Positions 1,351 to 63,348 of a stretch of 64,000 bases of DNA are shown in pieces. The DNA comes from Eutypella sp. D-1 (Eukaryota > Ascomycota > Sordariomycetes > Xylariales > Diatrypaceae). The DNA lies in contig JAJTTP010000020.1 in the NCBI GenBank assembly GCA_023313575.1, positions 124,001 to 188,000 of the forward strand. The letters are read 5' to 3'. The position numbers and the translations under genes were made by a program. The notes beneath the pieces are model-generated. The model was given only the letters and a program-made list of their open reading frames with translations, was not told where the DNA came from and made no database searches. Each line of letters begins with the position of its first letter. The first letter of the stretch is position 1.

Positions 1351-4300
1351 TTAGAGGTCTATGAGAGGCTCATAGTCATCTTCTTCCTTCGCGCCGCCAT
1401 TTCCCTCGAGTCGTAGAGCGGCCATGCGGTCCCGGATTCCTGAGGGATACTGCGGTACTATACTCTCTGGGGAGTACGGGCGTGGTGGAGAGTGAGTGGT
1501 AAAATGCGGAATGTCCTCGTCAAGCAGCGAGAAAGGTCCCCCGATGGAGTAATTCCGAATGCCACTGTCGTGATCCGAGCCCTGACCAAGATGTAGAGAG
1601 GTATCATGGAGTACGGAAACCTCTGGGGACACCGTAGCAGCCTCCAATTGGCTATGGGAATGAGTGGAAGGTAATTCTCTACTCGTTCCTGAATGCGCTA
1701 AAGGCATCGAGGTCTGGCCATTGTTATCTGGAGATGTCTTAGGAAAACCTTCGACCTCGGATATGTTACGTGTTGGAACCTGAGGCTTACCAGGCGACGA
1801 CGTTGACTTGATGCTTTCGCCGACCACGCGTTCGCCAAAGTCAGTCAGAGTCACAGGCCGGTAGATCTCTTGAACAATGACGTCTCCGTCCTTGAGTACT
1901 TTCGAAGAAGATTCGTCAGGTAAGTTAATGAGACTCGGGCGCCCCTCCACAGGCTGCGGCCTATCTCTCTTGGCCTTTGCGTCTTCTACTCGAGGGTTCC
2001 AAGAAGGCCAATTTGTAGAGCCTGCAACCATCATCCCACCAATATGTGGGGGCTGATAGCCGCCTGGAGCTCCCCGTCTACGTCGATTGTGGTCGCCAGG
2101 AGTGACTTCTTTCTTGAACTCATCGTGTGGATAAGCTCCTGTGAATTCGGGGCAATCGCAGGTGCACTTCTTGCCGCATATGTGTTGGCATCGATGGCCG
2201 CAGCGAAGGACGCGTGTGCATGGCTGTTGGCACATGAGAAGCTCATGGTCCATCCTGTATTGATCAGGGGTTAGCATACTGGCTTCGTCGAGACGATTTA
2301 CTGTTGAAGGTAGTTTGAAGTAGAAGAAGTTCGGATGCTCAGTTAAACTACGCAAGTGGGGGAACCATGGCGCCAAAGAGAGACTTAGGAACTTACGGAT
2401 GACATCTGCGCTCGCAAATATGTCCACAGGATAATTTTTCCTGGCAGGGCTGGTCACACCCGCCGTGATTCATCACCCAGTCTTCGGGGTGAGAGACATG
2501 AACAGTTTTCCCATGCTTCTGGCATGTAATGGGCAAGCGGCTGTCTTCGCCTAGACGGCCCTGGGCCTTGAAGGCCCTGTTAACCTTACCCCACATCTGT
2601 CTGGATTCAGGGCTGGCGTCGAGTAGGTTTCTCATATTGCCAAAGATATAGAAGCCGCGCCGTGCTCGGCTGATGGAGACCACGCCGCGATTCTGGTCCG
2701 CTAAGAAGCCAACGTTGGGTTGTTTGTTGGTGTCGTTACTGCGTACAAGAGACAATATGATGATGTCATTCTCCTCACCCTGATACGAGTCTACTGTGTA
2801 GACGTTGGTGAAGGGCCTAGCGCAAAAGAGTTTTCTTCTTCCTTCAGCAAGAATCTTCTTGCGTTGGCCTCTATAAAACGTTAGTATAGTGACCTGGGAA
2901 TCATGGATCCCGTTCATACGCAGGTAGTGAACGAAACCCATAATCATCTCAGCTTCCAGGATATTGAACTTGCTCATATCCTCGTCGCTGGCTTCGCTCC
3001 AGGTGTGGTGGAAGAAGTACGACTCGGCGGCCATGCCGGGAATCGGGGGGCGGGAGCTTGGGTTCTTCACTACAGGGTGATCCTGCAAGCGGGGATAGAA
3101 CTCGTTGAGTACCATTCGTAGACTAGGAATCATGCGGCGCTGCATGTTGAGCATTGTGTAAGGCATTTCCAGTTTAACAAGCCTCTCGAAAAGGGATACC
3201 CGCAAGTTGTACGGCTCCTCTCCAAGCCCTCGCGTGTCGCAGTGTGGCACCAGCTGTTGGTGATCACCAACAAGGATGAGCTGCTGGAGAGTGGGGTATA
3301 TGGCAGAGATGATATTGGCTTCACGAGTTTCGGCCGCCTCTTCGACGAGCATGGTTCGGGGCTGCAGAGCGGCTAGAAGACCACGATATTTGGTGAGACC
3401 AGTTGTAGTGCATCCGATGACTTCCACCTGAGCATTTCTGATTATATGCATATCCTTGTACCAGCGGCTGATCTTCAGATTGTCAGTGATGCGCTTGCTG
3501 TCGGCAATTACCTGACGAAGCTCTGTGGCGCGCCGCTCCAGCAGCTGTGCTTGCCAAGCTCGATAGACGGCACCTCGAAATTTGGTATCGATTGACCACA
3601 GGTTCGGACGCTTCATCTCCTTGCGGATTCTGAAATCATTGCTTAGGAATCCCTGGCCAGTCTGGCCGGTCCAGGTATGACTGATGGGAACCCAGGTCCC
3701 TCTGATCGCAAAGTTTTCGGCCTCTTCATCAGCGTGATCTTCGAGCTCCATGCCATACTCTTTGGCGTCTTCCATTTCGTCCCAGAGCCCTTCTTCTCCG
3801 TTATCTTCATCTTCCGCCGTGAAGTTGAATTCTTTGTAAACTGCAGGAGGTTTTCTGATGAGCTGCTCTGGTCCTAGCCACTGTGCGATAATTCCGACGG
3901 GAAAGTCAGGCGGCAGAGTATTCACCCATCCGTCATCGACTGCCAAGGAGTCGTACTGCTCCTGAGTGATGATGGCGGCTTCGAGAAGTTGATCTGGGTC
4001 AAGTACCCCCTCCGGACAGACTTGTTCAATAATGCTCTGCAGAGACGCAACATTCTTCCGTTGAGCACCCTCGGAGTTCCTGAAGTTGCGATCGCAGATC
4101 CTCTGAATCGCCTTCTGGAATGTTCGTCGACGAAGATTGTACAGACTGAACTCCTTCATATGCTCGTTCCGGGTCCGGCCACCGAGGCGTACGATTTGGT
4201 ATCCCCGTTCAGTTAACTGCATCAGGATCTGGTCTACTGCATGATTGGTCTGCGCGGCCACGATGACAGGACTACTTCCCCGCTGCTGGCTTTGTAGTAA

Positions 4301-5514
4301 GATATCAAGCGATTGAACGGATGTGAAGGTCTTGCCCGTTCCCGGAGGCCCTTGGATAATGGACAGCTCCTTAGTGAGGATGCGGTGTACGGCCGTAAGT
4401 TGTGAGTTGTCGAGATTGGTGTATCTCGAAAGCCGATCATCGATACCGCCCAGAACAGGATATTGAACGAGATTGTCTTTGACCTCCTTCATCTTCTGTA
4501 AAGCCTCGGTTCTGCTGATGGAATCCATGCCTGGGACGTGATGGACTAAGCTGGCAAGATTCATCTCCGGGGCTTGAACGACAAAGTCGGCATTTGAATC
4601 GCATCTATCGGCTTGGACCTGCAGCGGTGATTAGTGAAAGGTTATCTCTTTTAGAGCCGTCGCCGTATGCTTACCAAGTACTTGTCCAGAGGCGAGTTCT
4701 CCTCTGCCGCCAGTTGCAGTCCAACCATAGTGTGACGGGTGGACTCAAAGTATCCAACCCTGCTCTCTATCATGATGAGCTCCAAAGAAGGGTCTACGAC
4801 CGTGTCGTCAGGGTTGGCCCAGAATATCTGAATGGTAGGTGGGCTCTGATCGAGCCCACCCCGAATGACAAAGTCGGCGATGACAGCAGGGATGCATATC
4901 GTACGAAACTTGTCTTTGGCCGTCGACAAGGCTACGAGCGTGCCAGTAGTAAGACGACGGGTCTGAGTCCACCGAATCCTCTTTCCGGCACGCTCGGTAG
5001 AGAAGCTGACCCGGCACATAGGTCCTATGCGAGTCATGAGGTATCCTTGGACGAACACCTTGGTATAGACACATGTATCCCTATCATCTTCCATCGCCGG
5101 GTTGCTTTTGTACTTGGATATGGAATATCGAAGCATCGTTATCGACTCTTCTCGTTGAAGTCGATAGTGGGTCTCCAGATAGAGAGCCTTGTCTTGCCAA
5201 GGGGCTTCGACTGTGTTGGGCAGAAGCACCGAGTTAATCTTCGCAACCTGCGCCGGATCGTCCCAGTCCGGGTTCAACTCCTCGGACGTGGGGATTTGAG
5301 CGAGGCATTGCCACTCCTGGGCCGGTCTGTCCAGCCCAGAACGGCTTTGGGGCTCGAATTTGATGTGATCCTTTATTGTCTCGAGTTGGGCCTGGAGGAG
5401 CAACATGGAAAAGAAACTTTTAGCTCTCTGTTCGGCCTTCTCTAAGTTCAGTATTGGATTACTTACCAGAGCCGGATCGGCTTCCAGCGGCCCTGGACTA
5501 TCGCAGTCCGCCAT
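1351..5514 (-). CDS. NFX1-type zinc-finger-containing SF1 RNA helicase (ZNFX1/Hrr1-like), 1,321 aa
   Basis: Three exons: 5514-4675, 4618-2397 and 2254-1351. The introns are 4619-4674 (GTAAGC...CAG, branch CTAAT) and 2255-2396 (GTAAGT...ACAG, branch GCTAAC), and the joined frame is open for 1,322 codons. The N-terminal domain has the LxTHYxLxREE signature of NFX1-type helicases. Walker A (GPPGTGKT) is near residues 370-377, a DExx-box variant VEEAAE near 704, and the motif V/VI region DSYQGEE near 888. CGHxC-type zinc knuckles follow at about 1000-1050 and straddle intron 2. The last 250 residues are low-complexity and Ser/Pro-rich. In fission yeast the homologue Hrr1 works with Argonaute and RNA-dependent RNA polymerase in RNAi-directed heterochromatin, and ZNFX1 acts in small-RNA pathways. 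That role here is inferred from the family. The gene looks intact and housekeeping-like. Confidence 0.93.
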
Positions 5515-6166
5515 AATGGAGATGAATTGCTCCTCTTATTATAGTCGCGTCAGTTCTTGATGACTTGGTGGGGGTAGGTGATGGTAGGGATGGACCTGCA
5601 CGAGAGGAATTGATGGGGAGTTTAGGTTGGAGAGGTCAATCGGGTGAGTACAGAAAGTGCGCTGCAGAAGTACTATCACACAGGGATGATATATACTTTG
5701 GAGACTGAGGAGGGGGTCAATAATTATTTAGAGATAGAATTAGTGATGGTGACGATGGAGATGGTGGTGGTGGCGACTGTAGTTCTGGTAACTTAGAAGC
5801 GGGGTGTCTAGGTATGATGGATGTGATGAAGGTGAGGGAGTAACCAAGGCTGAATGAATGAACCTGAATGAACCTGGATGAATAGTCGTATAGTGCCTTC
5901 CTAATCTACAAGCAGAAACTGTATGTCATGTAGGATGGATGTTTGGCAAACACGGTGTTGGGTCGCGTTGATTAGGGAATCCAAAACAAACAGAGCAGGA
6001 CGTGTGTGGATGTAGAGGTAGAGGTATGTACTGGGGTCGCCGACGTGGTCTAGATGAGGAATAGTGGGGATAATACAACTCGGGGTGATTGCCTTGACAC
6101 TATCAAAGGCGGGAATGGCTTCACAGTCGCAGATGGCTGGAAAAGCGAGTATGGATGGAGTGGGTA

Positions 6167-6250
6167 GGGAGAGAGGGAGAGAGGGAGAGAGGGAGAGAGG
6201 GAGAGAGGGAGAGAGGGAGAGAGGGAGAGAGGGAGAGAGGGAGAGAGGGA
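6167..6250. repeat. (GGGAGAGA)n microsatellite
   Basis: About ten perfect 8-bp GGGAGAGA units, purine-only on the plus strand. Such mirror-repeat tracts can adopt triplex DNA. The artefactual open frames through it are repetitive (SLPLSLSP on one strand, ERERGREG on the other). Confidence 0.95.
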
Positions 6251-6449
6251 AAAGATTGGGTAGGTGTATCTGGGGAAACAAGGAAAGAGGTTGAGTAGAA
6301 GTGACCTGTGTGGATAGATTAGACCTCGGGAATGATGAACCTAGCGTATATGATCTACCTAGTACCATATAAGTAGATGGGTACATATATAGGTACCTAC
6401 CTATGGAGGTAGCTACCTGGGTAGGTACCTATCATGGAAGAGTGTAGAT

Positions 6450-8758: not shown

Positions 8759-9198
8759 CTATTCCCCTTCCTCTTCGACGATCCGGAGAGCGGCAGGGCT
8801 ATACTGACGCTTCTCAGTGGTCTCTTCCTCCAAGAGCCTCAACGCAGAGGGACTATACTGGCGTTTCTCGCCGGCCGCCTCCTCCTCGGCGATCCTGAGC
8901 GCTGCGGGACTATATTGGCGCTTCCCAACAGTGTCCTCTTCCTGCTGCTCCGCGATCCTCAGCGCTGCGGGACTGTACTGCCGTTTCTCGTTGGCGTCGT
9001 CCTCGGCAATCCGCAGTGCTGCGGGGCTGTACTGACGCTTGCTTGCGGCGTTGGCATTCTAACAGATGATATTAAGTTAGTTTACCCAGCTCTGAGTTCT
9101 GAGCCGATCCAATCCGATAGGATCCGCTCTCTTACCTCGATGGGGGCAGCCAGGACGCTGGCCGCTAGTGCGGTGAGAGCTACGATCGAGACGCGCAT
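8759..9198 (-). CDS. Kexin-processed repeat precursor peptide (putative dikaritin-type RiPP precursor), 120 aa
   Basis: Two exons: 9198-9136 (21 codons) and 9058-8759. The intron 9059-9135 (GTAAGA...GTTAG) is phase 0. Exon 1 is a textbook signal peptide (MRVSIVALTALAASVLAAPIE). Exon 2 encodes five tandem copies of KRQYSP(A/S)ALR(I/L)(A/L/V)E, separated by acidic spacers of 4-9 residues. KR is the recognition site of the Golgi protease Kex2, so the product should be cut into five nearly identical Tyr-containing peptides. The signal peptide, KR-bounded near-identical repeats and acidic spacers match UstA, PhomA and other dikaritin precursors, whose Tyr is cross-linked by UstY-type oxidases; such an oxidase is the divergent neighbour. 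A TATA-like GATATAAG lies about 105 bp upstream of the ATG (9303-9310). An alpha-pheromone precursor is unlikely because the repeats lack Trp and Cys. The core boundaries and any cross-link are inference; the gene model is solid. Confidence 0.88.
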
Positions 9199-10267
9199 TA
9201 TGAGTGCAAGGCTAAAAGTGACTGACTGATTTGGACGGGCGAGTTTGAATGTGATGTCTCGATTACGATGGTAGTCAGTGGATGGGAGAATCACCGCTAC
9301 TTCTTATATCCCAGTACCAGTCCCTATCCGCTTGGCACGACTATAGGACTCCCGGTCGGAGAATATAGAATGAGGGGAAGCTTATTCCGACGTATCCGTT
9401 CGAGACCCTGCTTGTTGATCCTTCGAGCTGCCACTATCTCCAACTCTGGACCTGTCAGTCTGGACTAGGCTCGGATCCTTCCCGTCGATCACGTTCCTTC
9501 ACCCCATCATGGCGTAGTATCTAGTATATGGCATTGCCACTGGTTAGTCGCGGGTTCTATCTACCATCGACTGACTTAGGCTCGCTTCGCAGATCGAGGA
9601 TCAATCGGCAACTGTCTACCTTGTTCTAAGCGACATCACCATGATCATCATGCAGCTCTGCGGGTTTGTTTGCTCATCCTGTCGCTTACTCTCGTGCCTG
9701 CATGCATACCATCACGCAAGCCACTACATCAGCACTACTTACCGCTGGATTCTGGTTTGCGCGCCCTATCAAGATCGGGATCTTGCGAATGAAACCCCGC
9801 GCTACTACATTTCAGTCCTACCAGTGATCCTGTCGCAGTCTGCATCTGATAATTGCTATATACCCCTGCTTGGCAGGGTATTTGCTCCGGCGACCCACAC
9901 GCTCACTAGTAATACTTCGGCAATCATCATACAACACCAAACATATACCCATCATCCTGCCTATCTACTGCCAGTATTAGTTCAATTTGATGGGCTAGGG
10001 CTGAGATGACTGCAGTGGAGGACACGGTAGCTGCAGCTTGGCGAGTTTCCCCTCTTCGTGTGGAATGGAGGAACGAAAAGCGGGATTCACTACCCGGCCA
10101 AGAGAATGGCCTCATGAGTTACGTGCTCATGACCACCCATCTCCTCACCCGATAGCTACGTGGACCATGCCAACTGAGGATTCCTGCTGCTGTCTCTGTT
10201 CTTCTAGATGCTCGCCCTTTTCCCCCCGAGCTCTTCAGTTTCCGTACTTGCGTGATCTCCTGGAACA
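9199..10267. promoter_or_regulatory. Shared divergent promoter of the precursor and the UstY gene
   Basis: This 1.07 kb separates two genes transcribed away from each other, an arrangement that allows co-regulation. On the minus strand GATATAAG (9303-9310) is a good TATA box for the precursor. No equally clear TATA box is seen for the oxidase. A CCGGTCGG motif near 9352-9359 resembles paired CGG half-sites of Zn2Cys6 regulators, but this is only suggestive. An open frame at 9641-10009 has no coding signature. Confidence 0.5.
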
Positions 10268-11375
10268 ATGGCTTTCTTACAAGTCATGCGGTCGAAACAC
10301 ACCTCCGTAACCTCAGAGGCTGGCGATGATGTCGAGTCTTTGTTGCCTACTTTAAACTCACGAGAGTTGGGGGATCGGCAGAGCAAAGAGGACATTTCGG
10401 GGCTCCATGCCAAGCGAACCCGTTGGTTATGCACCTCCAGTTGCGGTCTCATACTCTTGACGGCCTTCAACATCATTCTGTTCATGAGTACACTGATCGG
10501 GTTCCCCGCAAGCTCCCAGCTCAATCGAGACCTACGACGCACGTCCACATACAGTTCAGAGACACCCGTTCATCCTATGCTGAGTTAGACAAAACTAATA
10601 TCACTACAGGCCCTATTCACGACAAATTCGACTTGGAACTACAGTCCAGAACAATCCAGGGCACCTTGTTTCCGTCGAAAGATGGAGCATCCATCGCACG
10701 TGAAATGCCAAACGCAGCCGCGGACGAGGTCTGGGAGGAATGGGAACTGACCCGCTTTCTGCCTCTGACGGAGGCAAACATTGTGAAGATGGGAAAAGAC
10801 CCGTCCACCGTTCCAAAGCTTGATGACAAACAGTGGGGCTTGGGCGACAATGCGTACATCGGCGCCTTCGACGTGTCCCATCAGATCCATTGCCTGAACT
10901 CGCTCCGGCGCATCATCTACCGGAGCTACTACAATGAGACGATGCCCAACCCCGAGTCTATGGGCTTACCTGAGATCCACGTCAACCACTGCATCGACAT
11001 CCTGTTGCAGGCGATCCAATGCAGCGGCAATGTGAACCTCATGACGTACCATTGGGTAGTGGGCCAGGAGTACCCACAACCCGACATGTAGGTGAAGACG
11101 GATGATGAACCGAACAGACTTGGCATCTTAGGCGCAGAGCATGCTGACCACGCCGACCTAGGTCTATCAATCGGCAGTGTATCAACTTCGACAAGCTGAC
11201 GGCTTGGCGGAAGGAAAATGCGCTCGATCCAGACAAGTACCTCAGGACGATGAAGAAGTCGTTACACCATGGAGTGAAAGAGAGACACCAGAGCGATGCA
11301 TACTATGAGTACTTTCGCGAGGAGAATCCAAATCACGTCAATGGCGCCAACCCGGGGGAAGATTTCAACCTGTAG
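10268..11375 (+). CDS. UstYa-family (DUF3328) oxidase, 325 aa
   Basis: Three exons: 10268-10553, 10610-11087 and 11162-11375. The introns are 10554-10609 (GTTCAG...ACAG, branch CTAAT) and 11088-11161 (GTAGGT...CTAG, branch CTGAC); the spliced frame is 326 codons. A single membrane helix at about residues 55-80 follows a cytosolic N-terminus. The DUF3328 domain has the two diagnostic motifs HQIHC (186-190) and HVNHC (219-223), a YSP start after the first intron, and a PDMSINRQC C-terminal motif across the second. UstYa proteins act in the secretory pathway on Kex2-released peptides and catalyse oxidative macrocyclisation at Tyr; the histidine motifs are needed for activity in characterised members. 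The neighbouring precursor offers Tyr in every repeat, so this is its likely modifying enzyme (inference). A copia LTR begins 12 bp after the stop codon, so the transcript must end inside transposon DNA. The coding sequence shows no RIP damage. Confidence 0.92.
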
Positions 11376-49815: not shown

Positions 49816-50191
49816 TGTTGAGTGATGCCCAAGTGTAATTTTACGAACAGTCTTCGGGATACTTGAATCATAGTAACCATAATTGTCAGCTGTGTGTAAT
49901 ATAGTAACGAAATGGTTATTTAACAAATAAAAAGTGATTATCCATAGTAAATAAAAGGGGCTTTTGTAATACTAAAGTATCAAACCCAGGTATTCTTGCC
50001 TAGGTAGTGATTATAATGCTACCTACCTACTAGGTAGGTACTTAGGTAGGTACTCAATACTAAATAGGTACCTATGAGGTACTAAGGTATGGCGTCTAAC
50101 ACCTGACAGGAAAAATAACCGTGTCTTTGTGCGAATTACCAGATCCGTTCCGGTTTATTGTTATGAAACTCTTACAGATGATGCTGGTGTA

Positions 50192-50226
50192 AGAGGAGCA
50201 AGAGGAGCAAGAGGAGCAAGAGGAAG
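50192..50226 (+). repeat. 9-bp tandem repeat AGAGGAGCA
   Basis: Just under four consecutive copies of AGAGGAGCA. Confidence 0.9.
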
Positions 50227-50499
50227 AAAAGGAAAGAGTATGCCCGGCGGAAAGTTGTAAAAGCAAGAGCCTTATGTTTCGAGAACCCGTCCTCTATTAG
50301 TTATCTACATACCTAGGTACCTACCTAGATACCGATAGGATGCTCTGGTACGGAAGGACATAGCGATAACTGTCTCACATCTTTTGTTTTCTTTTTTCTT
50401 TTCTTTTTAAATATGTCTTTTTAGAGTGATTACGTACCTGCTATACACTGATTAAATACATAATATCATACCTTTTTATTACAACTTATCAAAGGGATA

Positions 50500-53476: not shown

Positions 53477-55426
53477 TTAGACGACGTCCTTGCGATAAGC
53501 CGCCAGCCACCTGCGATAGAAAGGCTTGGGCTGTTCATTAGTAATAGCAGCATCTTCCGACTCAGCAGCGCGCCTCTGCGGCACATCGACGGCCTCGCCA
53601 TCGAGTCCCGTATTCGTGACGGCGTTCTGCTGCTTGCCGAGGTAGAAGTCGGGCATGAAACAAGTGGCGATCATGGGGACGGCGGCCATGCAGAGGGCCG
53701 TGACGGCAATGTGACCATTGACGTACGCATAAGCGCGGATCGCGGCCTGGCGGACGGGGGAGTCGAAGACGTAGCTCGTGCGGAGCTTCTTGATGTTAGC
53801 GTAGAGCTTGACGATGGTCGGGTCGTCGACGTCGACGCCGACCATCTCCTCACGCATGCGGTTCAGCATCTCACTGGTCCAGATGGCGGAGGAGACGGCG
53901 CTGCCGATGGAGGAGCCGAGGGTGGACCAGAGCGTCAGCAGCGAGATAATGGAGGCCATGTCTTCGTGGGGGACGGAGGCCTGGCTGCCGACGCGCGCGC
54001 CGACGATGTTGAAGGAGCCCAGGCAGAAGGTCAGTTGGGCGATGACGAGGCGGGCTGTGTCCTGGACCATGTCGCCGCTGGGCTGGACCAGAAGGCCGTA
54101 CGCGACCATGCGCGCGGCGGCACCGAATAACATCATGGTCTTGTATCGGTGCGTGACGCGCTGGATAAGGCCGACGATGGGGCCCATGATACTCAGCCCC
54201 ATGGTCGTGACGCCCAGGAAGATGATCCACTGGTAGTTGGTCCAGTCCTTGATGATCCAGATATACGACGAGAAGTAGGTGTTGCGTGTGGACGAGGCCA
54301 TCTGGTTGAAGGTGTAGATGGTGACGGCGGCGAGGAAGGTGCGGTTCTTGAGGATGCGCTTGGTCATGAGCGGCTTGGGCGAGAGGTACATTTCGAAGAG
54401 AACGTACGCAATAAGCAGCACGAAGCCGACGACGAGCATAGCGATGACGCTTCCGTCGGACCAGCCGCCCTCCATGGTCTCCGCGATCGTGAAGGGCAGG
54501 AGGATGAGGGAGAAAGACACGCCGAGGATGATCAGTCCGAAAATATCGATATCAATCAGGCCTTGCTTCATGAGCTTCAGCCAGTAGCCGAAACCCTTCG
54601 AGTTCGAGGCTTCCTCCTCGCCGACTCTGACACGCTTCGAAGCGGCCATAGTGACCATGCCGAACTTTTCGCCTCGCTTTTGCATAGCATACAGCGTGAA
54701 GATGGCCGGTACAAGCAAGACAGGCACCATGATGGCGAACATACCCAAGCCCCATCGCCAATTATCAATAAAAGCGTCGCCAATGAAGCCGTTAATGGGC
54801 ACAGTGACGATGAAGGGGATCGAGAGGGCGGCTCCGAAGAAGCCACGCCACTCCAGGGGCGTCAGGTCACCGACGATGATGTCGCTCAACAGGTCAAGGC
54901 CGGATTTACCGACGGAGGTGAAGCACATGCCGACCGTGTAAGCCGCGAATGTGCTCGAGCTTGCGGCGACGGCGAAGCCCACGACGTAGAAGACGAGAAT
55001 GATGATGTAGGTTGTGGGACGCGAGGTGATATCTGCCAACTTGCCGATGAAAGGCTTGCTGATCGCCCGGATGATCTGACTAGCTGTGCTAATGGCTGCG
55101 AGCTGGCTGTGCTGGCCGAAAGTGGAGCTGGCCATGGTGTTGAAGACGCTCGAGGTCAGGCCCATGTCGAAGGCATAGGCAAACATGGTCAGGCCAATGG
55201 AGATACCCACGAGCCAGAGCAAGATCTTGCCAGACCTGCCCGACTGGTACAAGACCTTGTTGAAGGCCTCGACCCTGCTGACACCGATGACAGGGCTGCC
55301 CTCATTTTCCTCTGCCAAAATTGGCTTCAGTGATGAGGGGTCGGCGTTGGGCTGATCATTGGTAACCTCGACGTTGTTCTGAGGCTGAGGCTGATCAGCC
55401 CTACTGGCTCCAGCTGAGGTCGACAT
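53477..55426 (-). CDS. MFS transporter, siderophore-iron type (ARN/SIT/Mir family), 649 aa
   Basis: A single exon with very high GC3 on the minus strand. After a 48-residue hydrophilic N-terminus comes GVSRVEAFNKVLYQSGRSGK, closely matching the entry of fungal siderophore transporters (GVxRVEAF). Some 12-14 hydrophobic helices follow, with landmarks SKPFIGKLADITSRPTTYI (loop 2-3), GKSGLDLLSDIIVGDLTPLE and a central cytosolic loop near residues 265-290. A long cytosolic tail ends FYRRWLAAYRKDVV. These proton symporters import ferric siderophores; the precise substrate cannot be read from sequence. About 650 aa is normal for the family. The long plus-strand frame opposite (54149-55333) is a GC-bias shadow. 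Confidence 0.9.
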   Translation of the reverse strand: MSTSAGASRADQPQPQNNVEVTNDQPNADPSSLKPILAEENEGSPVIGVSRVEAFNKVLYQSGRSGKILLWLVGISIGLTMFAYAFDMGLTSSVFNTMASSTFGQHSQLAAISTASQIIRAISKPFIGKLADITSRPTTYIIILVFYVVGFAVAASSSTFAAYTVGMCFTSVGKSGLDLLSDIIVGDLTPLEWRGFFGAALSIPFIVTVPINGFIGDAFIDNWRWGLGMFAIMVPVLLVPAIFTLYAMQKRGEKFGMVTMAASKRVRVGEEEASNSKGFGYWLKLMKQGLIDIDIFGLIILGVSFSLILLPFTIAETMEGGWSDGSVIAMLVVGFVLLIAYVLFEMYLSPKPLMTKRILKNRTFLAAVTIYTFNQMASSTRNTYFSSYIWIIKDWTNYQWIIFLGVTTMGLSIMGPIVGLIQRVTHRYKTMMLFGAAARMVAYGLLVQPSGDMVQDTARLVIAQLTFCLGSFNIVGARVGSQASVPHEDMASIISLLTLWSTLGSSIGSAVSSAIWTSEMLNRMREEMVGVDVDDPTIVKLYANIKKLRTSYVFDSPVRQAAIRAYAYVNGHIAVTALCMAAVPMIATCFMPDFYLGKQQNAVTNTGLDGEAVDVPQRRAAESEDAAITNEQPKPFYRRWLAAYRKDVV

Positions 55427-57037
55427 TTTGCCTTCAGTAGGGTAGGTGGGTGGTGCTCAGAACGTATCCTTGAGGGGAAAAAAAAAAACACATGCAAAGA
55501 AAAGAAGATCGACGGAAAAGGATTTGTCGCAGGGCTGCATGGCCTTTACATATCTGCGCATCGCGGAGCACAATTCGAGCTAGACAGTCCAACACGTGTG
55601 GCTCGCATGACCCTTATTTTTTCAAAATTTTCTTCCATCTCCTCGGGTCTCGAAAACCGTACAGATCTGGTTTAAGTCCTGTGAACTTGTAAGGCCAAGC
55701 TGCCACTACCACTTGGTCTGCATCCTTGGCCTCCCGTTGTGTCCCCGGCTCCCGTCGTTGGCCCATACATGGATAAGACGCTAAGCCTTAAGGAACTGCT
55801 CCGATCGAAAACTAGTTCCATTACGGATACTTACCCGTATCTGATGATCTGATAATGCATCTTTTTGGCCCTGGACCGTAAGTGGACCCGATCCGAAGGA
55901 TCTGGAGGTAATCCATAGTGCACGCCCTAGCAGGGATTGTTGCAGTTAGTGACATATAAACCCACCTATTTCCAATGATAACGCTTGGCGCAGCTGAAAG
56001 TACCCATGAAGTACCAACTACCAAACTATCTGACAGTGAGCCTCATGCCGTGAGGAGCACTATAACAGGGTCCGGGAGGGCGCCACATGGGTTGCGCGAG
56101 AACAAGTCCTACATGGGTCTAATTCTACCTCAACATTATTGCTGACATAATTATTCCTCCTGTGTCACCAGCATATGGGTTCGAATTATGTCAACCGAGA
56201 GTTACTAAATACAAGGGCCGAAAACAATTACACACGAACTACCCACCTAGTAGGTAAGAGACCAAACAATAACCGTCATATACTTGCTATACGAAAGCCT
56301 ACAAACCCCGTGTAGTTAATCGTGGCGTAAAAATCACCATGGTCTCAGTCTTAGGGATCATAGCCGACCGCCACGTAGACCATCTCGTGTCGTCGGGCTT
56401 AGCCAGCGAGATGACATAGTTAAGGATGATGAAGCTCAAGACGACTTTCATGAACGTGGTCGCATGTTATCTGCCGGGACTGCTCGAGATTAACGGGGGG
56501 GGCCACCTAGAGGCCAGAGTTGAGACGTCGTCACTCACCATGCCATTCGTCCCGTGCCCCACATGGGGAATTTGTTGTCCACATCAGACAGTCTCGAAGG
56601 CGTCGACTGGGGTGTCCTGAAAGACGAGGGGCTGCCCTGTTGTTGTTGACAGAGTATTTCCGGATCTACGAATCGGAACCCGTTGAACTGTGAAGAGTCC
56701 GAGTAATGCTCTTCCGCGCTCATGATTGCCCCGGATGGTGTACAAGCCCATCAAGGCCAGTGGTGACGGCTTCGTTACAATCGTCCCGTAGGGCGATTGC
56801 CAACACTGTCAATATCTTTGCGCAGCAACTACGCATGCTATTTTTAAGTCGATGTTACACTACACATATCACATCTCCAGGTCAGTTGCACGCCAAGAGT
56901 TGTTGGGGCTAGACACACATGCCGCCAAGCTGGGGGCCACTGACCGTTCGCCTTTTTATCACCTTCCTGCTCCCCAACTTGCCAAATAATTCACCTAAAT
57001 CGGACTCAGCTCGTTACAATCCATTCTAACTATCATC
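55427..57037. other. 1.6-kb intergenic region
   Basis: It contains the promoter of the MFS gene (minus) and of the sulfotransferase-like gene (plus), with an A-run at about 55,480-55,489. Short frames here are unsupported. Confidence 0.5.
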
Positions 57038-57853
57038 ATGCCAGTAGATGAAACCTCTTCTCATTTTGACGGCCTAAAGGTCATTAATGCAGGCCTTTTT
57101 CGCATGGCAACAAAATCGATGGCCCGAGCTTACATAATTCTTGGTCTCAAAACGCACCATGGGTTATTGGAAGACGTCACGGAAAGTCCATGGACGTTGA
57201 TTGAAGCAGCTGCGGAAGCAACTTGGCCAAATGTCCCTGGTGCATCAGCTCGAGCACCCCATACTCGCGCAGACTGGGATAAAATCTGGGGCGCCTACGA
57301 CGCTGTTACCGATCTTGCATCCCCGTTTGCTCTTGAGTTAATCAAGGCGTACCCAGAGGCCAAGGTCGTTATCGTCCAAAGGGACTTCGACTCCTGGTGG
57401 CCTAGTTTCCGGGCTCAGATACGCGACACCGTCATGACGGAGCCTATGTCTAGTATCTACGCATTCATCACGTCCACATTTCTCGGAATTCGACCGGTAC
57501 ACGCAACGAAGAAACTCATTCTAGGGCTATTCAATGCCAAAACCAAAAGCGAAGTCAATGAGGCCCGAGCTCGGGAAGTGTACGAAGCATACTTTCGAGA
57601 CATACGTAGACTGGTCCCCGAGGAGAGAAGATTAGAATACAAGATGGGTTCTGGATGGAAGCCCCTGTGTGCGTTTCTCGGCGTTGAAGAACCAGACGTG
57701 GCATTTCCACAGGAGAACGATCGGGCCTTGCACTCAGTAGAGAACGAGTCAAGAACAAAGAAATTCATTGTTATTACAATGAAAGTCACTTTGCCTTGGT
57801 TGCTTGGAGCCGCTATGGTTGGCGGCGCGTGGATGGCTGTTCGGAAAGTCTGA
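57038..57853 (+). CDS. Sulfotransferase-like P-loop protein (Sulfotransfer_4 type), 271 aa
   Basis: A single exon from MPVDETSSHF. The order of landmarks fits Sulfotransfer_4 proteins of fungi: a strand VINAGL leading into a degenerate PAPS loop (FRMATKSM in place of PRTGTxSL), LELIKAYPEAKVVIVQRDFDSWW (3'-phosphate-binding Arg/Ser region), ERRLEYKMGSGWKPLCAFLG, and a PDVAFPQEND end. A final hydrophobic segment WLLGAAMVGGAWMAV followed by RKV is probably a C-terminal membrane anchor, common in these fungal proteins. Loss of the Pro and Gly of the P-loop makes PAPS-dependent activity uncertain. Family members are often found beside secondary-metabolism genes; the substrate is unknown. Confidence 0.82.
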   Translation: MPVDETSSHFDGLKVINAGLFRMATKSMARAYIILGLKTHHGLLEDVTESPWTLIEAAAEATWPNVPGASARAPHTRADWDKIWGAYDAVTDLASPFALELIKAYPEAKVVIVQRDFDSWWPSFRAQIRDTVMTEPMSSIYAFITSTFLGIRPVHATKKLILGLFNAKTKSEVNEARAREVYEAYFRDIRRLVPEERRLEYKMGSGWKPLCAFLGVEEPDVAFPQENDRALHSVENESRTKKFIVITMKVTLPWLLGAAMVGGAWMAVRKV

Positions 57854-58380
57854 GGCTTGAGACAAGCTGCCCCGTATCACGAGTTTGTCTTATTGCTCTA
57901 AACGTTGTCCTTAGACGGTTTCGATCATTCGAATATATCCTCTTGCACTTTCTATTCTGCAGCGGTAAAATGATTCTATTCCGGCGAGACAGTAGCAACA
58001 ATCGCCCATTCATCAGATTGAGGATTTACCGTGTTGTTTAGGTTAGTCGCGCATGAGGAAGGCTTTGAAGCTAAATTAGCCTTGGGGGGGCATATTGTTA
58101 ATTGCGGCGCTTTAGCCCGGAGTTTACTTATTATTATAACGATACGAAGACGACTAGATAGCGAATCACCAACTAGCCTGCCCCGTGCAGCACGGGTATA
58201 TATTAAGGGCCACGGTCCTCTTAGATAGCCCATTCTTTTCCCTTCTCTTCCATGAGCAATAACAGAATTCTTTTAGCCAACCTAATGTTCAGTCGGTGCC
58301 GCAATATGTACATGATCATATACCTCCACCACGCAATATATTTTAATTTCGTCAAGGTCTCTTTTTACTAGCTGGGCGTT
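57854..58380. other. Intergenic between convergent genes
   Basis: AT-rich 3' regions of the sulfotransferase-like gene and the hydrolase. No gene seen. Confidence 0.5.
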
Positions 58381-59230
58381 CTACAGCGTCATGAACCCCT
58401 TGATGAACTTCACAACCTGAGCGGCCAAGGCCATCGGCTGGCTAATAAACGGCATATGCCCCGTTGAGAAGTCGGCCACATCCCACTTGACTTGAGATTT
58501 TTCTAGCCACGAATTTTGTAACCATGCGGGATTGCAGCAGTCGTTTAGCGTACGCACATAGGATCTCCTTCCATCAAAGGCTTTGTCAGCCCATGCCGGA
58601 GAGGTAGCCTTAGTGTCAAAGGCGAGGAGCGCATGTGGTTGCATGGAGTCATTCAGCTCCGGGGCGGAGGAAGGATCACAATCGTTGTATAAGATGTCCA
58701 TCGCTGGCTCGATAACAGCCAAGCCCGCCGATGGCTTGAACATGTATTAGTTTGTTTTTCACAGTGAACGGAGACATGGGTTAATTAATTCCACCTACTT
58801 TGTCGATCTTGATAAATGGAGGATGAGCTCCGCCCACCGCGTGGGACAGAGATTCGCCCTCGAGCGCGATGTTACCTGCTACATAGATAAGGCCAATGAC
58901 GCCGGTAACTTGGCCGTGAGTGGCGCGTGTTTGCTTGTCAAGATTCTTAGCCGCACCACCGGCGACGATGCCGCCGTATGAGTGCGCAAGGATGACAACA
59001 TCTTTCTTCTGCTGGTCCAGCAAAGGGAGGAGGATGGTGTCCCGGAGCGAGGCGATATCATGTGCACAAGTTGTGATGGTGGGATCCGGGGGGTTGCAGC
59101 TAGGGTACGGCCCGGGATGGGTTGAATACCCAGCTTCCTTCAAGTAAGGTAGTAGTTTATCAAAGCAGGCTGGAGTTCCGAATGCCCCCGGGACAAGGAC
59201 AATCACCGGAAGGCTTTCAGACATGCTCAC
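58381..59230 (-). CDS. Alpha/beta-hydrolase, 261 aa
   Basis: Two exons: 59230-58799 and 58734-58381. The 64-bp phase-0 intron has GTAGGT...AAG with branch CTAAT. The protein begins MSMSESLPVIVLVPGAFGTP, with the oxyanion strand and loop of alpha/beta-hydrolases. The nucleophile elbow is AHSYGG (Ser near residue 85) and the catalytic His is in FSTGHMPFIS near the C-terminus; a general acid is likely in the FDTKAT region. Size and motifs match small soluble esterases of the salicylate/methyl-ester type common in fungi. It is divergent from the FAD oxidase gene with a 500-bp shared promoter, suggesting joint regulation. Substrate unknown. Confidence 0.87.
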
Positions 59231-59729
59231 AATCTAGGGAGACTCTATCGATGATAGATGGTTATAATAGCGGCATGCGTGAATGAAGACTAAGTCGGGA
59301 AAGGACGGGTTCTTGGGGTTGGAGAAGAAAAAAGGCTCCTTTTGTGGCCGGGGAATGAATATGTGCATTATTTTGCTGAGTGCAACGATAAATGAGTCGA
59401 TACATGTTGTACAACTCCAACCCCCCCGATGGAGAACAGGCATATTTACGTTTATTATAAAGGATTAATCTACATGCATGTAGCATGTAGTTGCATCGGC
59501 TTTCGATTCGTTCTAGCAAACCTGTTTTTCCTAACTCTTACAATCCAGCTGTAGGCTGCTGTCGGATTCAAGGGACTCGAATTACACGTCGGGTTACACC
59601 ACAGCTTGCTGCGTCCGGCGCTTTTCTGCCTTATTTTTGCTTGAGCCTGCCCGTCTGTGTCACACTCTCTCGACATGTACTTTTTCTCATCATATTCGAG
59701 AGCTGTAACCAAGAGAGCATCGTTTGAAG
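59231..59729. promoter_or_regulatory. Divergent promoter of the hydrolase and the FAD oxidase
   Basis: A 500-bp spacer between two genes transcribed away from each other. No consensus operator is obvious. A palindromic CTACATGCATGTAGC lies near 59,470-59,485. Confidence 0.45.
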
Positions 59730-61537
59730 ATGACAATGGAGCTACAGGTAAAATCGGAAGGACTAAGGCCTCTATTGACCGACAAGCGGAATGCGTGGTC
59801 CACAGGTGCAATAGTCTCATTTCCCGTAAAGGCCAACTTCGTAGACGCGACTCTACGATGGAATCTTCACCAAGCCCCAACGTTTGCTGCCAGCATCAGT
59901 GTAGGTACTGAGGCTGATGTAGCTAAGGCAGTGCGTGAACCGCCAATTCCCCCAGTGGCACCACCAGCCAATGATCATATTTAATGATGTTATATACTTA
60001 GGTCAAATTCTCAAGACTGAACAAGCTTCAGTTCCTAGCTACTGGGTCGCGCCACGGCTGTTGCACCACTCTGGCCAAGCTCCATGGCGGACTTGCTATT
60101 GACCTCAGTCGCCTTAACTTGGCGGAGGTAAACCAATCCGCAACGACAATTACAGTGGGCCCCGGAATGACGAATGAGGCTGCTGCCAGAGTCGCCAATG
60201 ACGCCGGCTTTGAAATACCGTTAGGTACCTGCTTAACCGCCTCTCTGATCGGCGCCACTTTAGGTGGCGGCGTAGGTCGCTGGTCAGGCGTGTACGGCTT
60301 GATGATTGACGGTCTACTCTCGGTTCGGCTAGTCACAGCGGAGGGAGAAGTTGTCGAAGCATCCGACACCAGCAATCCAGATTTCTTCTGGGACATTCGA
60401 GGTGCTGGAGCTAATTTGGGCATCGTTGTATCTGCCACCTACAAGCTCCATTCGCCGGTCAGTGAAGGCAAGGTGTTAAGCGTAGATTTTATGCTCTCGG
60501 TGGTATCGCATCCAGTATACTCAATATAAGGAGCGTCGTAATACAGATGGAACTGATCTTGTATTTTCTAAGTTGTAACAAAAGAAAAGCTATCTAGAAA
60601 GCCTATATATAGTAAAGAGCGGGGGAATGATACCCCGTGGCTCCATTGATGGGAGAGAGCCCCACAACCATAGTAGGCTGCTCTCATTGGTTGCGACAGG
60701 TGGACAGAAAATGGGAGTACTTCCGCATCATGAAAGATCTTAACGACAAAGGCTTGCCTGCGGAGCTAGCTATTGTCAGTGTCATTCTATATGACCCTAC
60801 CAGCAATTCAGTGAGTTTTAGCCAGTTAACCCCTTTATCGGCGAGCACCACACGTGTATCCAAAAACGGTTATGTTGGCTCTGCTAACGACTAGACAGAC
60901 ACTGATTGGTGGCAACTGGGCTTGGTTAGGCTCAGAGACGGAGGGCCATGAAGTCATCAAATCTTTTCTTAAAATGAATCCGCCTGTGTTCAACGATTCA
61001 GTCGTATCTTGGGCGGAGATCACCAAGTGCGCTGGACTTGGGTCTGATGGCTTGACGTGCCAAAAGGGGCAAAACCGGAGCATGTACGCGGCAAATATGC
61101 GTGACTTCCAGGTGCCTCTGTACGAAAAAGCCGTGGACAAGATGACTCAATTCTTTAACGAGCATCCATACGGTCGCGGAAGCAATGTCATTCTAGAGAA
61201 CTGGCCAAACACTACAGCTATGACCATTCCAGATGACGCGACTGCGTACCCTTAGAGGGACTCCACAATATATGCCATGTTCCAGTTTTCCTGGGCCGAA
61301 GGGGGCAGTCCTACGGAAAGGGCAGGGGACTCTCTGGGCGATGACCTAAGGAATGACTTCGCTGCAAATTCTGGCTACTCTGACTTGGCGGTACATGTCA
61401 CCTACGCCCATGGTGATGAGACGCTTGAGCAGACGTACGGCAAACACAAATTACCTCGTCTTGCAGCTCTCAAGCAGCGATATGATCCAGATGAGGTCTT
61501 CAGCTACTGCCACCCGTTGCCATTACAGTACCCATAG
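59730..61537 (+). pseudogene. BBE-type FAD-linked oxidase gene with in-frame nonsense codon
   Basis: Reconstructed exons: 59730-59930, 60002-60499, 60700-60810 and 60899-61537. The first intron is 59931-60001 and the third 60811-60898 (GTGAGT...ACAG); the 200-bp second intron (60500-60699) has a weak donor and is the least certain. The product shows the FAD_binding_4 fold: TEADVAKA, a RHGCC loop where the flavin-linked His normally lies, LGGGVGRWSGVYGL, FFWDIRGAGANLGIV. A BBE-like C-terminus (LKQRYDPDEVF) follows. At 61253-61255 a TAG stands within AYP-stop-RDSTIY. The same frame then stays open and conserved for 94 codons to the natural stop, so a single point mutation has cut off the last 95 residues. 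Such oxidases typically act in secondary metabolism. Confidence 0.82.
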
Positions 61538-61888
61538 GGAGGCAATCCGATGTCGCTAGTAGGGACCAATAAGATGATGATTGCTTTCCTACACCTGTGT
61601 AATAAACTGTGCTTATCTGCCTTCTAAAGGTTATGTTAACTCCGCATATTCTTATTCGCTTTAAGCACGCGCAAAGCTACATGTATCTAAGATGACCCGT
61701 AGGATGCGAGGTTCACATGCAGCTGCTACCTGGGCATGTAACCCTACCTGTACCTACTAGGTATGCTAGAGAACCCGTACCTATGCTAGAGAGGTCTTTA
61801 TAAAGGAACGAACCCCGCTCCAGCAAAGCCCTTTGTGCAATATTCATCTCCAGCCTTTCTCATCTAATTACAACGTATTTGACCAACG
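61538..61888. other. Promoter region of the FAD monooxygenase
   Basis: It contains TACCTACTAGGTA motifs and a direct repeat TATGCTAGAGA (near 61,761 and 61,782). No gene seen. Confidence 0.5.
61799..61804 (+). promoter_or_regulatory. TATA box of the FAD monooxygenase
   Basis: TATAAA in the context TCTTTATAAAGGAACG, 85 bp upstream of the ATG at 61889; good position for a fungal core promoter. Confidence 0.65.
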
Positions 61889-63348
61889 ATGGCTTCGCGT
61901 CCCTTTCGCGTCATCATTGTGGGGGCCGGACCAACGGGGCTAGTCATGGGAAATATGCTCAGAGCAGCGAATATCGACTTCATCATACTCGAGCGGTATG
62001 CTAATGTCGTAACCCAGTCTGGAGCCACCATCATCCTATGGCCTCACGCGACTCGCATCCTCGACCAGCTCGGTCTTATGGATATCGCCACCCGCAATAC
62101 TTTGCCTCTCCATACGAAAACCGTCATTACCCATAAGGGTAGGCAGGTGAGCAGCGATCCTGCTTTTCGGATGATTGAGGAGAAGTGAGCCTACATATCA
62201 CTTAACACGCGCCATACATCGGATTGTTATGGCTTACATATATTCCAGTCACGGCTACCCGGCTCTGGCGTACCCTCGTCCACAATTGATAAAGCTGCTA
62301 TATGAAGGCCTTGAAGCCCACATGTCCAAGGTCAGAACGTCCTCATCGGTTCAAGACATCGAGGTGAGTGAGGATGGAGTCATGGTTCGCCTTGAAGATG
62401 GTAGTGCAGAATGGGGATCCATCGTCATTGGCTGCGATGGGGTACATAGCCAGACCAGAAGCATTTGTGAGTAGCATTTGCGGTAGTTTGTCCCAAAAGG
62501 AGAATGCTTATTGTCACCTTCCCTTATATTAACCCTGGATGCGGTGGGAGCTAATACACCGCCTGGTAGTGCATCGAGAAGCAACGAGACATGGCAGGAC
62601 TGTGGACGAACACCGTCAACCTGCCGAATTCGAATGCCTGTTTGGGACAGCAACCTCTATTCCTGCAGTCCCCTCCGGCATTTTCTGGGAGTCTCATGGA
62701 CCAGGCATAGCTTCGCAGTTGGCTTCTGATGGTTCGACTTGCCGCTTCAGTATCTGGAGGCGCTTGGAGAAGTCGAGAACAGAGAAGAAGTACAACTGCG
62801 CGGAAAACGACAAGACAGCGGACTTTTTGCTGGGGATGGGAGAGGCACATTTAGCCCCCGGTCTTCAGGCCCAGGACTTGGATAAGCATTGCACGTGGCA
62901 AAGGCTGGTTTACCAACCAGAAGGCCTGTTGGAAGAATGGTATCATGGCCGCATAGTTCTCTGCGGGGAATCGGTTGCGCAGATGACCTCGATCAATGGC
63001 ATGGGCTTCAACGTGGCCTTCCAGTCAGCTGCAATACTTGCTAATAAGCTCTGCGCCTTGCTACGTTCAAACGGCAACCCAAGTAAGGGGACGTTGGAAA
63101 AGACATTCGCGGAGTATCAAGATATCCGCAAGCCGGAAACAAAAGCTGTCACTCAGATTTCGGTGCACTACGTCCGTGCTGCTACTTGGTCATCATGGCC
63201 AGGTAAGATATTCATCGACTACATACTACCCTTGTTCTATGGAGAAGCGGGCCTTCTTAAGATGTTAGGGGAGAAGATCTCAAAGGGAAGGAAACTCGAT
63301 CTCATCCATCACGAAGACAAGATGGGGACAATTCCATGGGGTGAATAA
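61889..63348 (+). CDS. FAD-dependent monooxygenase (FAD_binding_3 type), 430 aa
   Basis: Three exons: 61889-62184, 62249-62466 and 62570-63348. Introns 62185-62248 (GTGAGC...CCAG) and 62467-62569 (GTGAGT...GTAG) give a continuous 431-codon frame. The dinucleotide fold is IIVGAGPTGLVMGNML with an ILERY acidic end. The DG motif is GCDGVHS. A PHM7-like mid-part ECLFGTA...FWESHG follows. The third motif, usually GDAxHxxxP, reads LCGESVAQMTSINGMGFN, so the flavin-ribityl Asp is Glu and the His is Gln. About 430 aa is somewhat short for the group (typically 450-480). Such enzymes hydroxylate or epoxidise aromatic or terpenoid intermediates. The frame is intact, but the altered GD motif may mean weakened activity. 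It probably belonged with the adjacent FAD oxidase in one pathway. Confidence 0.85.

Follow-up and report, generated by a model that had tools for sequence, protein, structure and literature searches.

The precursor gene and the UstYa gene described below probably form a minimal, asperipin-like dikaritin-type RiPP locus, in which UstYa would oxidise the precursor's cores in the secretory pathway. Both genes lie in the window, which is the whole stretch of DNA that we analysed (64,000 nucleotides, C13:124001-188000, from a host genome of 48.5 Mb in 72 contigs). Positions refer to the window unless another contig or stretch is named. This assignment is supported by the signal-like N-terminus of the precursor, the KR before each core, the conservation of the core relative to the spacers, the divergent UstYa gene, and two further loci in the genome that combine a Kex2-processed repeat protein (KEP) with UstYa. 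Counting against it are the apparently orphan precursor, the Arg in the core, the single aromatic residue, the lack of a tyrosinase match nearby, and the lack of peptidase, methyltransferase, or transporter families in the neighboring ORFs that were scanned. The kinship to dikaritin-type loci that the earlier note proposed is borne out by a repeat precursor whose neighbour matches PF11807 and has both HxxHC motifs.

The precursor gene

The precursor gene is on the minus strand (9198-8759), and in the gene model from the sequence, its two exons encode 120 amino acids. Exon 1 (9136..9198) includes the ATG at 9198 and a signal peptide that was predicted from hydropathy (MRVSIVALTALAASVLAAPIE). 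Exon 2 (8759..9058), which is supported by the gene model and by the repeat alignment, encodes five Kex2-type repeats and ends with the stop codon at 8761-8759. Between the exons is a predicted GT-AG intron of 77 nt (9059..9135, GTAAGA...CTAAC...TTAG); the earlier note had placed an intron at these positions, and the predicted gene model recovered the same one. As aligned, and all on the minus strand, the repeats are KRQYSPAALRI-AEDDANE (8987..9040), KRQYSPAALRI-AEQQEEDTVG (8924..8986), KRQYSPAALRI-AEEEAAGE (8867..8923), KRQYSPSALRL-LEEETTE (8813..8866), and KRQYSPAALRI-VEEEGE (8762..8812). These coordinates and the model agree with the earlier description of a 120-aa precursor with five KRQYSP(A/S)ALR(I/L) repeats and acidic spacers.

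KEPs have an N-terminal signal peptide and repeats that are split by dibasic Kex2 sites. The top hydrophobic stretch of our precursor, by hydropathy, is IVALTALAASVL (residues 5-16), which is followed by AAP, and its five KR-QYSP(A/S)ALR(I/L) units have a spacing of 18-21 aa. The spacers are acidic, with D or E at 20 of their 38 residues. (The precursor also has a Pfam match to E3_binding, which passes the whole-protein cut-off at 6.6e-7, while no single stretch passes; we put this down to chance similarity of the repeated SPAA stretch and rejected it.)

The repeat array

The five-unit KRQYSP array exceeds chance. Of the 7 matches to a degenerate DNA pattern for KRQYSP in the 48.5 Mb genome, 5 lie in a single 245-bp stretch of the precursor gene. 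The other two are a single KRQYSP on contig C12, without repeats and near stop codons, and a match on C34 whose codons read KRQYWP, which the degenerate pattern also permits. As a control, the pattern read backwards has 4 matches in the genome.

Within the KR and the nine-residue core, 11 of 11 codon columns vary, and amino-acid changes are found in unit 4 alone (A to S and I to L). Taking all 10 pairs of units together, pS is 0.811 and pN is 0.040 for the KR plus core, of which KRQYSP (six of the eleven residues) was fixed by the search word and the next five residues were free. The corresponding values for the first six codons of the spacers are 0.784 (pS) and 0.379 (pN). Because pN is 0.04 in the core and 0.38 in the spacers at similar pS, selection appears to hold the core and to leave the sequence of the spacers free. 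The array is old, since its synonymous sites are near saturation (pS of 0.81).

The UstYa gene and protein

The UstYa/DUF3328 gene is on the plus strand (10268-11375), diverging from the precursor gene, and in the sequence model its three exons encode 325 amino acids. The region between the two genes (9199..10267; 1,070 bp from start to start) is a possible shared promoter. Exon 1 (10268..10553) encodes the N-terminus and a membrane anchor (residues ~61-79, by hydropathy), exon 2 (10610..11087) encodes the bulk of the catalytic domain (from the gene model and PF11807), and exon 3 (11162..11375, from the gene model) includes the stop codon.

Both introns were predicted from the sequence, and both splices agree with homologous proteins. 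Intron 1 (10554..10609, plus strand, 56 nt) has a weak donor, GTTCAG, and the acceptor CTAATATCACTACAG. Splicing it yields STYSPIHD, which agrees with the homologues' STYSPxxD and which, among the 30 longest models listed, arises only from models with the GTTCAG splice. The spliced stretch, LNRDLRRTSTYSPIHDKFDLE, is ungapped against 20 aligned homologues, except that P0018 begins just before the stretch and P0020 differs there. Intron 2 (11088..11161, plus strand, 74 nt) is GTAGGT...CCTAG, and its removal joins PQPDM to SINRQC, which matches the homologues.

The 325-aa protein matches PF11807 (UstYa) at 1.6e-47 across residues 49-274. It has one hydrophobic anchor and two HxxHC motifs on the plus strand, HQIHC (residues 186-190, 10879..10893) and HVNHC (residues 219-223, 10978..10992), so the description of a DUF3328 protein with both motifs and a membrane anchor stands. 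In an alignment of 59 homologues, chosen from the 120 listed, only 15 columns are invariant, and six of these are the H, H, and C of the two motifs. In the AF2 model of the homologue P0001 (72% identical by local alignment; mean pLDDT of 85.2), there is an anchor helix at 59-83, and the motifs at 190-194 and 223-227 are within helices 187-202 and 219-237. No solved structure matched UstYa, whether in a sequence search (E ≤ 1) or with Foldseek (E ≤ 0.001). As told in PMC12048977, a DUF3328/UstYa protein with two HxxHC motifs near a precursor gene is what defines a dikaritin locus. Here, this is the next gene.

The YSP of the core (9023-9031 in the first core) recurs in UstYa at residues 95-97, in STYSP at the start of the lumenal domain. 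This could be a coincidence or possibly a pseudo-substrate. A regular expression, [YWFN][SN]P, has no match in the first 140 residues of 48 of the 120 listed homologues, and the matches in the remaining ones are mostly S-x-YSP-V/I, with a few elsewhere. The resemblance involves three residues only and was noticed after the fact, and we dropped it as evidence.

Surroundings of the locus

The genes to the left of the locus are conserved and unremarkable. Pfam searches of ORFs identified a ZNFX1-domain and AAA helicase (2396-4630 and 4654-5535, both on the minus strand). The 10 kb upstream of the window has ORFs with PFU and PUL domains (which we take to be of the Doa1/PLAA type), an SRR1-domain ORF, and a BIM1-like ORF. 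The Pfam scan covered 41 of the 71 stop-to-stop ORFs of at least 100 aa in the window, 9 of the 26 ORFs of at least 110 aa in the 10 kb upstream, and the two spliced proteins. Among these ORFs, we found no peptidase, methyltransferase, or transporter families beside the locus. The nearest MFS ORF (53480-55456) is past the AT-rich island described below. It begins a row of MFS transporter, sulfotransferase, alpha/beta hydrolase, FAD_binding_4, and FAD_binding_3 ORFs (53480-63345), which looks like a separate small-molecule cluster. This row is over 42 kb from the locus, and its relation to the precursor and UstYa is not obvious.

An older definition of dikaritin clusters asks for five genes, including a tyrosinase, a methyltransferase, and a transporter or peptidase, and a newer one does not require the tyrosinase (both as told in PMC12048977). 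The earlier note had seen no tyrosinase nearby, and we agree: on this contig, PF00264 has its nearest match at C13:279707, ~144 kb from UstYa. The absence of a tyrosinase or a peptidase from dikaritin loci is described as "not uncommon" in PMC12048977.

Just past the UstYa gene is an AT-rich island (11400-38200, ~26 kb) with ~20% GC and strong RIP indices. Between 11201 and 11501, GC in 200-bp windows drops from 0.49 to 0.20, starting at about the stop codon of UstYa, and it recovers from ~38.2 kb. Across six 4-kb blocks from 12001 to 36000, the RIP product index is 1.14-1.27 and the substrate index is 0.25-0.39. One reading of this is that a larger dikaritin cluster once stood here and that its other genes were lost or moved as the RIP-mutated island (~11.4-38.2 kb) formed. 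In favor of a remnant, the fall in GC begins right around the end of UstYa, the blocks have 19-22% GC and RIP-type indices, and the classical clusters had the additional genes. On the other hand, neither reading frame is disrupted, and the core has been conserved; the island's only two ORFs of at least 100 aa have no Pfam family, and we found no UstYa or tyrosinase match inside it; and asperipin-2a likewise has a single UstY (PMC7329392, PMC12048977). We consider a remnant to be quite improbable.

Pairing of precursors with UstYa

Alternatively, the two genes might be neighbors by accident. Kex2 would release linear, unmodified peptides, such as a signal peptide hormone, and UstYa would act on some other substrate. 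This seems unlikely to us. As reported in PMC7329392, 6,120 of 7,878 KEPs lack a DUF3328 gene within their 15 nearest genes, which is compatible with an unmodified product. The other 1,758 (22%) do have one, most often as the adjacent gene, and Tyr is present in 65.6% of the repeats beside DUF3328 as against 38.2% of those without. An accident would also bring together two rare things: ascomycete strains average 5.25 KEPs (PMC7329392), and this genome has 11 UstYa loci, so adjacency by chance would be unlikely. Furthermore, alpha-factor-type mating pheromones have Trp-bearing repeats and usually lack a DUF3328 neighbor (all but three of the mating-factor KEPs lack one, according to PMC7329392), whereas the translated model of our precursor has Tyr and no Trp or Cys, and UstYa adjoins it.

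We also asked if other UstYa loci in this genome have repeat precursors. The 21 UstYa matches were grouped by hand into 11 loci, two of which are at contig starts. We scanned for KEPs in 13 fetched stretches (12 around loci and one upstream of the window) and in the window. The first scan returned five ORFs: three repeat precursors (in the window and in the stretches L014 and L019) and two low-complexity false matches in the window (6098-6295 and 50182-50313), which we rejected. A second scan recovered the focal precursor and the one in L019 and missed the one in L014, so 3 of 11 loci with a precursor, including the focal one, is a lower bound. Because pairs of KEP and UstYa recur in the genome, the focal locus is one of several. 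In Venturia inaequalis, screening for DUF3328 identified nine dikaritin gene clusters (PMC9632046).

The second precursor (L014:4314-5123, plus strand; C45:1440714-1441523) has 11 copies of PAYVWAS and is ~4 kb from three grouped UstYa matches. Its YVWAS core fits the conserved motif YVW[G/A][G/S] that is given in PMC6339444. The third (L019:6487-7056, plus strand; C5:737186-737755) has five NPDYIYTDV(D/N)AIE units and is ~1.5 kb from a UstYa match. The repeats at these other loci were found with exact motifs, so their pN is zero by construction and pS alone is informative; by this measure, the repeats of the precursor on C5 look younger than the focal array (pS of 0.19 vs. 0.81).

Two other regions are of note. 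At C12:2684794-2692694, a UstYa match is less than 8 kb from tyrosinase matches, and this is a possible classical dikaritin cluster; the KEP scan found no repeat precursor in C12:2680000-2689900. At C34:309408-316103, six UstYa exon matches are packed in 6.7 kb, and neither KEP scan found a repeat precursor in the stretches fetched for this group.

Relatives of the precursor and the enzyme

The earlier note had suggested searching for both the precursor and the oxidase in other proteins. For the oxidase this succeeded: among 799 candidates, we found 156 homologues of UstYa at E ≤ 0.001, of which 120 are listed. Fifteen of these (P0001-P0015) are 63-72% identical to UstYa. The best matches are from Hypoxylon, Daldinia, Annulohypoxylon, and similar genera, and the second-best is from Whalleya. 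In the taxonomy, Hypoxylon rubiginosum belongs to the Hypoxylaceae and Whalleya to the Xylariaceae; the other genera are presumably Hypoxylaceae and their kin. Judged by this one gene, the host fungus probably falls in or close to the Hypoxylaceae. In viral contigs, there were 135 pattern matches to UstYa and none was confirmed, as expected since the gene is fungal.

For the precursor, the search came up empty. Elsewhere in the genome, there is no further copy: the three matches at E ≤ 1 are the two exons themselves and one match with E = 0.84. A search of 5.8 billion proteins yielded 3,731 candidates that share words with the precursor, and none of them was a relative at E ≤ 10. Because this search covers only predicted proteins of ~66-210 aa with an exact five-residue word in common, and gene prediction may miss small spliced repeat genes, the absence of relatives is weak evidence. 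In the literature that we searched, we found no mention of QYSPAALR or YSPAAL, and shorter fragments gave no fungal RiPP by title. The QYSPAALRI-type core therefore seems to be an orphan, and the statement in the earlier note that no characterised dikaritin is known to have this core holds for the literature searched and for protein relatives at E ≤ 10. We know of no characterised product with an Arg and one aromatic residue in its core.

This imbalance, with many homologues of the enzyme and a precursor that seems to be an orphan, is what weighs most against a conserved pair of enzyme and substrate (we surveyed the pairing in one fungal genome, the window's own). That the enzyme's homologues are found in many species, while no relatives of the precursor were found, also speaks for linear peptides and an accidental neighbor. 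More broadly, the imbalance could reflect a replaced precursor, poor annotation, or an accidental pairing. As published, 2,560 KEPs have no homologue (PMC7329392). An ustiloxin-like RiPP cluster was reported from all of the studied Hypomontagnella species, H. rubiginosum, and H. pulicicidum, in a survey of Hypoxylaceae that could not judge its coverage of the true RiPP diversity (PMC8403587).

Proposed pathway

If this is a dikaritin-type locus, as we favor, then the signal peptide would carry the precursor into the secretory pathway. There, UstYa would be anchored by a single N-terminal helix and would face the lumen with its catalytic domain; judging from its family, it would bind copper via the two HxxHC motifs. 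It would oxidise each QYSP(A/S)ALR(I/L) core before or around cleavage by Kex2. Kex2 would cut after each KR, and Kex1-like and other peptidases, encoded elsewhere, would remove the acidic spacer as well as the KR. Once exposed, the N-terminal Gln may cyclise to pyroglutamate.

By analogy, UstYa would most likely join the phenol oxygen of Tyr-2 to the beta-carbon of an aliphatic residue, either Ile/Leu-9 or Leu-7. UstY enzymes are described as having a dicopper site, as in the asperipin-2a enzyme, which forms a Tyr-O to Phe-C-beta link (PMC12186524). Cross-linking of Tyr-2 is plausible, and our best guess for its partner is Ile/Leu-9, because Tyr is linked to Ile in ustiloxin, phomopsin, and probably epichloecyclin (PMC9233826). 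A cross-link is not the sole possible outcome, since UstYa-family proteins also desaturate, hydroxylate, and chlorinate (PMC10512285, PMC12048977), and desaturation or hydroxylation could occur here instead. The computed MH+ is 1018.568 for linear QYSPAALRI, 1016.552 after the loss of 2 H, and 999.526 after the loss of 2 H with pyroGlu. It is 1034.563 for linear QYSPSALRL and 1762.824 for the uncut form QYSPAALRIAEDDANE.

A bolder proposal, which we hold only tentatively, is that the two genes are a self-sufficient pathway. A copper UstY of a type that is widely kept in Sordariomycetes and other fungi would make a lineage-specific Arg nonapeptide, (pyroGlu)-YSPAALRI, with Tyr-2 linked to the C-terminal Ile/Leu. 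The enzyme would have stayed while the peptide was replaced, and the new core would be under strong selection. Having apparently just two genes and five near-identical cores, each with one Tyr, the locus would be a clean test of a single UstY acting unaided. A widely kept enzyme with an apparently orphan precursor also bears on how such enzymes change substrates.

Comparison with known systems

The locus belongs to a populous known group. Its novelty is less than first thought, because the 1,758 KEPs with DUF3328 neighbors and the single UstY of asperipin-2a were already published, as was the average of five repeats in dikaritin precursors (PMC10512285). The dikaritins reported up to 2022 number just five (PMC10512285), as against the 1,758 predicted KEPs with DUF3328 neighbors (PMC7329392).

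Ustiloxin and phomopsin resemble our locus in having a secreted multi-core precursor, a UstYa-family oxidase, and a Tyr near the start of the core, and in both, Tyr is linked to Ile (PMC9233826). However, they have 2 and 5 DUF3328 proteins, respectively, and need a tyrosinase (PMC7329392), while our locus has one UstY and no tyrosinase nearby. Like our cores, the epichloecyclins (from GigA of Epichloe) are nonapeptides from imperfect Kex2 repeats, and a Tyr-Ile link is thought likely (PMC9233826). As compared by description, they have an N-terminal Ile and an internal Tyr, whereas in our core, Tyr is the second residue and Ile/Leu the ninth.

Asperipin-2a from Aspergillus flavus also combines a precursor with Kex2-site repeats and a single UstY (PMC7329392, PMC12048977). 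Its pathway requires four genes (PMC10512285), including a reductase and a transporter (PMC12048977), as against the two seen at our locus. In its product, the side chains of internal Tyr residues form two links (PMC9233826), while our core has one Tyr and also an Arg. Overall, our locus is like the KEPs with DUF3328 neighbors that were described by Umemura in 2020 (PMC7329392) in its architecture, in having UstYa as the next gene, and in having a Tyr in each repeat.
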